Shown piece by piece: positions 7,872 through 8,121 of a DNA stretch of 64,000 nt (positions are counted from its first letter, which is position 1; each line of letters starts with the position of its first letter). Below the pieces are notes generated by a model, which did not search any database, was not told the DNA's origin, and saw only the letters and a list, made by a program, of their open reading frames with translations. Source of the stretch: Emticicia sp. BO119 (GTDB lineage: Bacteria > Bacteroidota > Bacteroidia > Cytophagales > Spirosomataceae); the NCBI RefSeq assembly GCF_013912375.1, contig NZ_JACETV010000001.1, forward strand, positions 1,364,001 to 1,428,000, written 5' to 3'. The position numbers were made by a program, and so were the translations under genes.

Positions 7872-7891
7872 AGCTATAGCGTACAAAGATG

Positions 7892-7960
7892 GTTGTGTGT
7901 GTTAACTTGAAGACAAGGAGTTTCATAAACTCTTCTTAGTTGTTCGACACCACACACAAC
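7892..7960 (+). ncRNA. Candidate structured leader RNA of metY (three-way junction)
   Basis: A closing stem of 10 perfect pairs (7892-7901 with 7951-7960) encloses two hairpins: 7906-7909 with 7914-7917 (loop AAGA) and 7918-7923 with 7927-7932 (loop CAT). The element starts about 14 bases downstream of the predicted transcript start, so it would be at the 5' end of the mRNA. It does not match the SAM-I or SAM-II consensus as I know them. Regulation by a sulfur or methionine metabolite is only a hypothesis from the gene it precedes; the fold is drawn by eye. Confidence 0.4.
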
Positions 7961-8121
7961 AACAATAATATTGTCAATTTTAAGCACTGATAAGATTTAT
8001 TAGAAAATATGTTTGTAAAGTTATCTTACTTTTTAAAACTTAGAAGATAGATTCTAATATCCGATCCAATTATCCTTAAATTTAGATTTTCAATAAATAT
8101 TTACAAAACCATTCTAAAATT

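Follow-up and report, generated by a model that had tools for sequence, protein, structure and literature searches.

Genes and features of the metY leader

The window, as used here, is the whole stretch of 64,000 nucleotides analysed from the Emticicia sp. BO119 genome (designated G000). Within the window, metY (O-acetylhomoserine aminocarboxypropyltransferase; TIGR01326, 643.6 bits) is located at 8122-9408 on the forward strand, and the gene for a YeiH-family transporter, which belongs to the same gene island in relatives, is located at 11142-12401 on the same strand. Upstream of metY, a degenerate tRNA-like element, corresponding to tRNA positions 1-73, was identified at 7891-7963 (forward strand) by its homology to three elements called tRNA-Met(CAT) by ARAGORN. 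The same segment had been described in the initial annotation as a 10-bp closing stem around two hairpins. The stem was found to be perfect in all 10 pairs, GTTGTGTGTG (7892-7901) with CACACACAAC (7951-7960), and encloses the hairpin AAGGAGTTT-CAT-AAACTCTT. When the leader was shuffled at order 1, about 4% of the shuffles also contained a comparable 10-bp stem, and the stability of the leader fold was not unusual (z = -1.75 for 100 nt and z = -1.71 for 246 nt).

The metY gene had been noted as a usual target of SAM riboswitches, in agreement with the detection of SAM-I in the metY leaders of 16 out of 20 related loci or genomes tested, though not in the clade of the window. With this positive control at hand, Rfam gave no match to SAM-I or SAM-II in the window, as had been judged by eye, and no match to T-box at the cutoff or up to E=10. 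On the metY leader itself no Rfam family was recognized at the cutoff, and nothing credible below it. At three SAM-I-less metY loci (L006, L007 and L008), the promoters carry a palindrome-like sequence, CTAT-N6-TATAG, close to the start, which may be an operator.

A consensus promoter with a transcript start about 245 bases before metY had also been proposed. The match itself, TTTG at 7841 and TAGCTTTG ending at 7871 (7841-7871, forward strand), is exact, but this box is not present in relatives, so that a start near 7876 is doubtful; a total of 14 such promoter-like matches were found in the 64-kb window, with about six expected by chance. A conserved promoter-like block lies at about 7806-7844 on the forward strand, consisting of the inverted repeat AATCTAT-TTGTTTG-GTAGATT followed by TAATTTG, with TTTG at 7817-7820 and, after 17 nt, TAATTTG at 7838-7844. 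In relatives this block is situated about 40-100 bases before the element and aligns to the window, and the element and the promoter-like block (14-18 of 20 columns identical) are the only two conserved intergenic blocks in the Emticicia genomes G008, G001 and G002. As predicted from this conservation, a transcript start near 7850 is more likely. Further upstream, after the MBOAT gene, a long and near-perfect inverted repeat of terminator-like appearance, TACTCAAGAAACGTTGTG...CACAATGTTTCTTGAGTA, was noted at 7631-7677.

Homologous elements in other Emticicia

By DNA search of the genus, which provides evidence of homology independent of the covariance model, one homologue of window 7891-7963 per genome was identified in G008 (82% identity), G001 (84%), and G002 (78%), with E=2.6e-17 (for the 82% match), 5.8e-16, and 4.2e-10 for the three. 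All three elements were called tRNA-Met(CAT) by ARAGORN. They are located between the MBOAT gene and the FA_hydroxylase gene, with metY following the latter, and lie about 1.4-1.5 kb upstream of metY. No orthologue of FA_hydroxylase was detected in G000 (best match 37% identity), and no remnant of it was detected at 7967-8060 of the window. Sequence shared between the window and the metY leader of relatives is limited to the 55 or so bases next to metY, and a metY-proximal block at 8070-8125 (forward strand) is identical to the leader of G008 at 50 of 56 positions. As the FA_hydroxylase gene is missing in the window, metY has moved up behind the element. The element became the metY leader by loss of FA_hydroxylase, unless the other genomes gained this gene; loss is favoured since the copy of G178 also precedes FA_hydroxylase.

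The individual arms of the window copy (all on the forward strand) are preserved to different extents. The 5' strand of the acceptor stem (7892-7897) pairs with 7955-7960 and is intact, including a compensatory change of pair 4-68 from C-G to U-A, and the anticodon arm (7916-7934; loop TTCATAA, anticodon CAT at 7924-7926) is intact as well. The D arm remnant (7900-7913) is broken by G.G at 7901/7912 and its D-loop GG has changed to TG, and the T arm (7938-7954) retains the loop TTCGACA with a stem broken by A.A (7938/7954) and T.C (7941/7951). Relative to the three congeners, the changes are C11G, G51T, T64A, and loss of a D-loop G, breaking the D-stem once (11-22) and the T-stem at 48-64 and 51-61. 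U8 is present, but position 1 faces 72 as G1xA72. The window copy received no ARAGORN call and no RF00005 match; the scores of 77-92 bits were obtained with covariance models built including this copy. It is the most eroded among the Emticicia homologues. These changes probably represent decay, the compensatory change in the acceptor stem and the intact anticodon arm leaving room for re-use as a hairpin leader.

The same substitutions account for the 10-bp stem spanning 7892-7960 on the forward strand: C11G and T64A provided new partners for positions 61 and 8, respectively, so that the stem is a secondary result of these two changes. The pair 11-61 is confined to the window copy and the pair 8-64 is found in two of the four Emticicia copies. 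In place of the three-way junction of the initial annotation, the ancestral fold is the four-armed tRNA cloverleaf into which the homologues fold. A leader peptide was also considered, in a 16-codon frame that starts at ATG 7889-7891 and crosses the element; it was rejected as not conserved, because G001 and G002 lack this start codon and the frame is, in G008, a section of an 88-codon open frame.

A wider family with cloverleaf covariation

Two covariance models were constructed, R1 from the four Emticicia copies and R2 from 12 elements. With R1, copies with the anticodon GCA were identified in G006, G160, and G102, and copies with CAT in G176, G177, G178, G181, and G182, extending the family to Lacihabitans and other relatives. 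A pattern scan of genome contigs, which gave no matches in its first run and 13 in the second, added two more CAT copies, L228 in an Emticicia MAG and L234 in a MAG near G177/G181; two Mucilaginibacter matches of the scan are tRNA-Gln. The anticodon is CAT (Met) or GCA (Cys) in every copy of the family. RF00005 was scored above the cutoff in G178 (47.6 bits), G102 (41.3), G011 (40.7), G181 (37.7), and G008 (35.4). R2 was abandoned as a family detector, being so general that almost all genomes of the order gave matches to ordinary tRNAs, and therefore only R1 matches with gene context were used. Those R1 matches at 30-45 bits that were examined were mostly ordinary tRNA-Arg(CCT), tRNA-Cys, or tRNA-Leu.

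Over the alignment of 12 elements, 96.5% of the cloverleaf cells are paired, and 16 of the 21 cloverleaf pairs have changed on both sides (6.2 +/- 1.7 in shuffles; none of 500 as high). The covariation was 0.545 versus 0.191 over these 12 elements, in an alignment that was fitted to the cloverleaf and thereby favours it, but slid controls remain far lower. Covarying stems, which the initial annotation had looked to homologous leaders to provide, do therefore exist, but within the cloverleaf of the wider family; the four close Emticicia copies by themselves showed no significant covariation, so that it is the wider family that makes the case. Likewise, its proposal of an undescribed regulatory RNA holds as far as a structured RNA with no Rfam recognition in the window is concerned, but not as a metY-specific sensor, since the copies in relatives precede other genes.

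In G009, only the 3' half of the element is retained, at the end of the Rrf2 gene. The C-terminal tail of this Rrf2 protein (L193, 10225-10737) is encoded by the 3' half of the element, and the protein has a C-x2-C-x6-C motif. Six loci (L161, L162, L164, L165, L166, and L135) have a strong hairpin, resembling a terminator at most of them, no more than about 10 nt upstream of the element.

Gene island around the elements

All the strong copies of the family are located within one sulfur-related gene island. The recurring neighbours are metY, FA_hydroxylase, DUF1684, Rrf2, a CrtO-like oxidoreductase, and YeiH, together with an AhpC/TSA-like protein, a serine hydrolase, an aldo/keto reductase, DUF2490, and a TonB receptor. 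The elements precede an island gene and share its strand, at a distance of about 10-120 nt in most cases: the next gene is FA_hydroxylase in G001, G002, G008, and G178, DUF1684 in G177 and G181, Rrf2 in G176 and G182, the AhpC/TSA-like gene in G011, what we take from reading the sequence to be an aldo/keto reductase in G006, and a presumed ChrA-type transporter, likewise named by reading, in G102. All other gene names were assigned by Pfam or NCBIfam. The link of the island to sulfur, as predicted from its gene content, would be given by metY, YeiH, and the nearby TauE. The window element is also found at an island position as defined by metY, Rrf2, DUF1684, and YeiH, but the best matches to Rrf2 and DUF1684 in G000 lie elsewhere.

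Comparison with ordinary tRNAs

Among the 46 ordinary tRNAs of the window genome, U8 is present in all and the 1-72 pair is formed in 45, the sole exception being a tRNA-Met that resembles the initiator. Among the 12 elements, U8 is present in six, the 1-72 pair is formed in three, and G1xA72 is found in nine. The elements with GCA carry A73, whereas the tRNA-Cys of the window genome carries U73, and U73 and GCA are major determinants of cysteine identity (PMC9976931). As U8, the 1-72 pair and, in combination with GCA, U73 are often missing, the family is probably not used for elongation, and a role outside elongation is suggested. Several copies also received no ARAGORN call. Besides the window copy, three CAT tRNAs and one tRNA-Cys are encoded in this genome, which therefore would have no need for the element.

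With respect to ancestry, the GCA copies and the CAT copy of G178 are closest to tRNA-Cys, and a duplicated tRNA-Cys gene is the probable ancestor of the family; this assignment is weaker for the CAT copies of Emticicia, for which a tRNA-Leu scores equally well or better.

Interpretation of the metY leader element

Based on these observations, the element at 7891-7963 is probably a decayed member, or a vestige, of a family of tRNA-like leader RNAs travelling with a sulfur-related gene island, rather than a metabolite sensor. A duplicated tRNA-Cys gene would have given rise to this family, which accompanies the metY/Rrf2/DUF1684/YeiH/FA_hydroxylase island in Emticicia and its relatives among the Cytophagales. 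For the copies of close relatives, transcription is likely to begin at a conserved promoter belonging to the element, which would form the 5' part of an island-gene transcript, and the cloverleaf with anticodon CAU or GCA is likely to have a non-translational job, which may be that of a tRNA mimic recognized by RNase P or by a protein that binds tRNA (MetRS or CysRS). The FA_hydroxylase gene would then have been lost from the window genome, leaving metY behind the element, and the pairs of D-stem and T-stem would have been lost as well. Most likely, the window element has no sensing function for metY. Some observations speak against simple decay: the perfect acceptor stem, the anticodon arm, the T-loop and the promoter are all kept, and some constraint may remain; and two of the three stem-breaking changes make new pairs, which could mean re-shaping.

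Several other explanations have to be weighed against such a vestige. The family, including the window copy, could be a working cis-regulatory tRNA mimic, in which binding of MetRS or CysRS to the leader tunes the next sulfur-related gene. The location of the elements ahead of an island gene and on its strand, the restriction to Met or Cys anticodons, and the conservation of just the promoter and the element agree with such control, and a CAU-type change of the anticodon is described to have placed E. coli thrS under the control of MetRS (PMC9976931); but the downstream gene varies between copies, a common attenuator was not found (a terminator-like hairpin follows the element in G006 and not in others), and the D and T arms of the window copy are broken, altogether making this reading unlikely. 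We also regard it as unlikely that the elements represent accessory tRNA genes of the ordinary kind (tRNA-Met or tRNA-Cys isodecoders) beside sulfur genes, with that of the window as a pseudogene: the cloverleaf covariation and the ARAGORN calls would be explained, but not the missing U8 in half of the elements, G1xA72 in nine of 12, A73 with the GCA anticodon, nor the copies that ARAGORN passed over.

The 3' halves of tRNA genes are common integration sites, and the retention of only the 3' half in G009, at the end of the Rrf2 gene, is what the remnant of a tRNA gene used for integration of a mobile island might look like. That the element marks such a site is very unlikely, since no integrase was recognized in the mapped neighbourhoods (open reading frame starts and selected Pfam families) and many genomes keep the full cloverleaf. 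The least probable of all is a metabolite-binding three-way-junction riboswitch of new type for metY, for which the 10-bp stem in a metY leader with no known riboswitch was the starting point, but the homologues are cloverleafs before other genes, the pair 11-61 is formed in the window only, and 8-64 in two of four copies. A more speculative extension, which we consider unlikely, is that translation-inactive tRNA-like leaders, kept with Met or Cys anticodons alone, report the supply of sulfur amino acids to the island by mimicking a tRNA towards MetRS or CysRS, and that the copy in the window is on its way to becoming a hairpin leader of metY.

Relation to known tRNA-like RNAs

For the proposed family of tRNA-like leaders, the closest known object is the pseudo-tRNA of Bacillus cereus, tRNA-Other, which was proposed to serve as a structural, tRNA-like component within a larger regulatory RNA (PMC3399842). 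Both are tRNA-shaped, linked to a gene island and not used in translation, as far as this is predicted here; tRNA-Other is, however, iron-linked and from Bacillus, whereas the present family is from Cytophagales, has Met or Cys anticodons, and lies in leader position within a sulfur-related island. Second is the leader of E. coli thrS, a tRNA-like operator in which the anticodon decides the synthetase (reviewed in PMC9976931). A tRNA-like fold within an mRNA leader is common to both, but thrS controls its own synthetase gene, whereas here a full cloverleaf precedes metabolic genes and the binding of a synthetase is putative. The SAM-I riboswitch (RF00162), the usual metY leader in this bacterial family but not in the window, has neither sequence nor fold in common with the element. 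A literature search for Emticicia tRNA-like RNAs, or tRNA-like sulfur leaders in Bacteroidetes, gave nothing relevant, and the family looks undescribed.

The suspected riboswitch is thus replaced by a traceable history of a tRNA-derived element, gene loss, and decay. The small family, in which tRNA-shaped RNAs beside sulfur-related genes carry Met or Cys anticodons only, is a more interesting object than the window copy, and would offer a testable example of how tRNA genes are recruited outside translation in Bacteroidota. With the genes for tRNA-Cys and tRNA-Met (RF00005), the elements share the cloverleaf, the T-loop TTCGA, and a 7-nt anticodon loop with CAT or GCA, but unlike these tRNAs, many elements lack U8, the 1-72 pair, or U73, and the window copy is below detection. 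Outside the window, a dense array of tRNA genes, several of them degenerate, was noted in the same genome (G000:C25:185456-190001; locus L088), and looks like a tRNA-array island.
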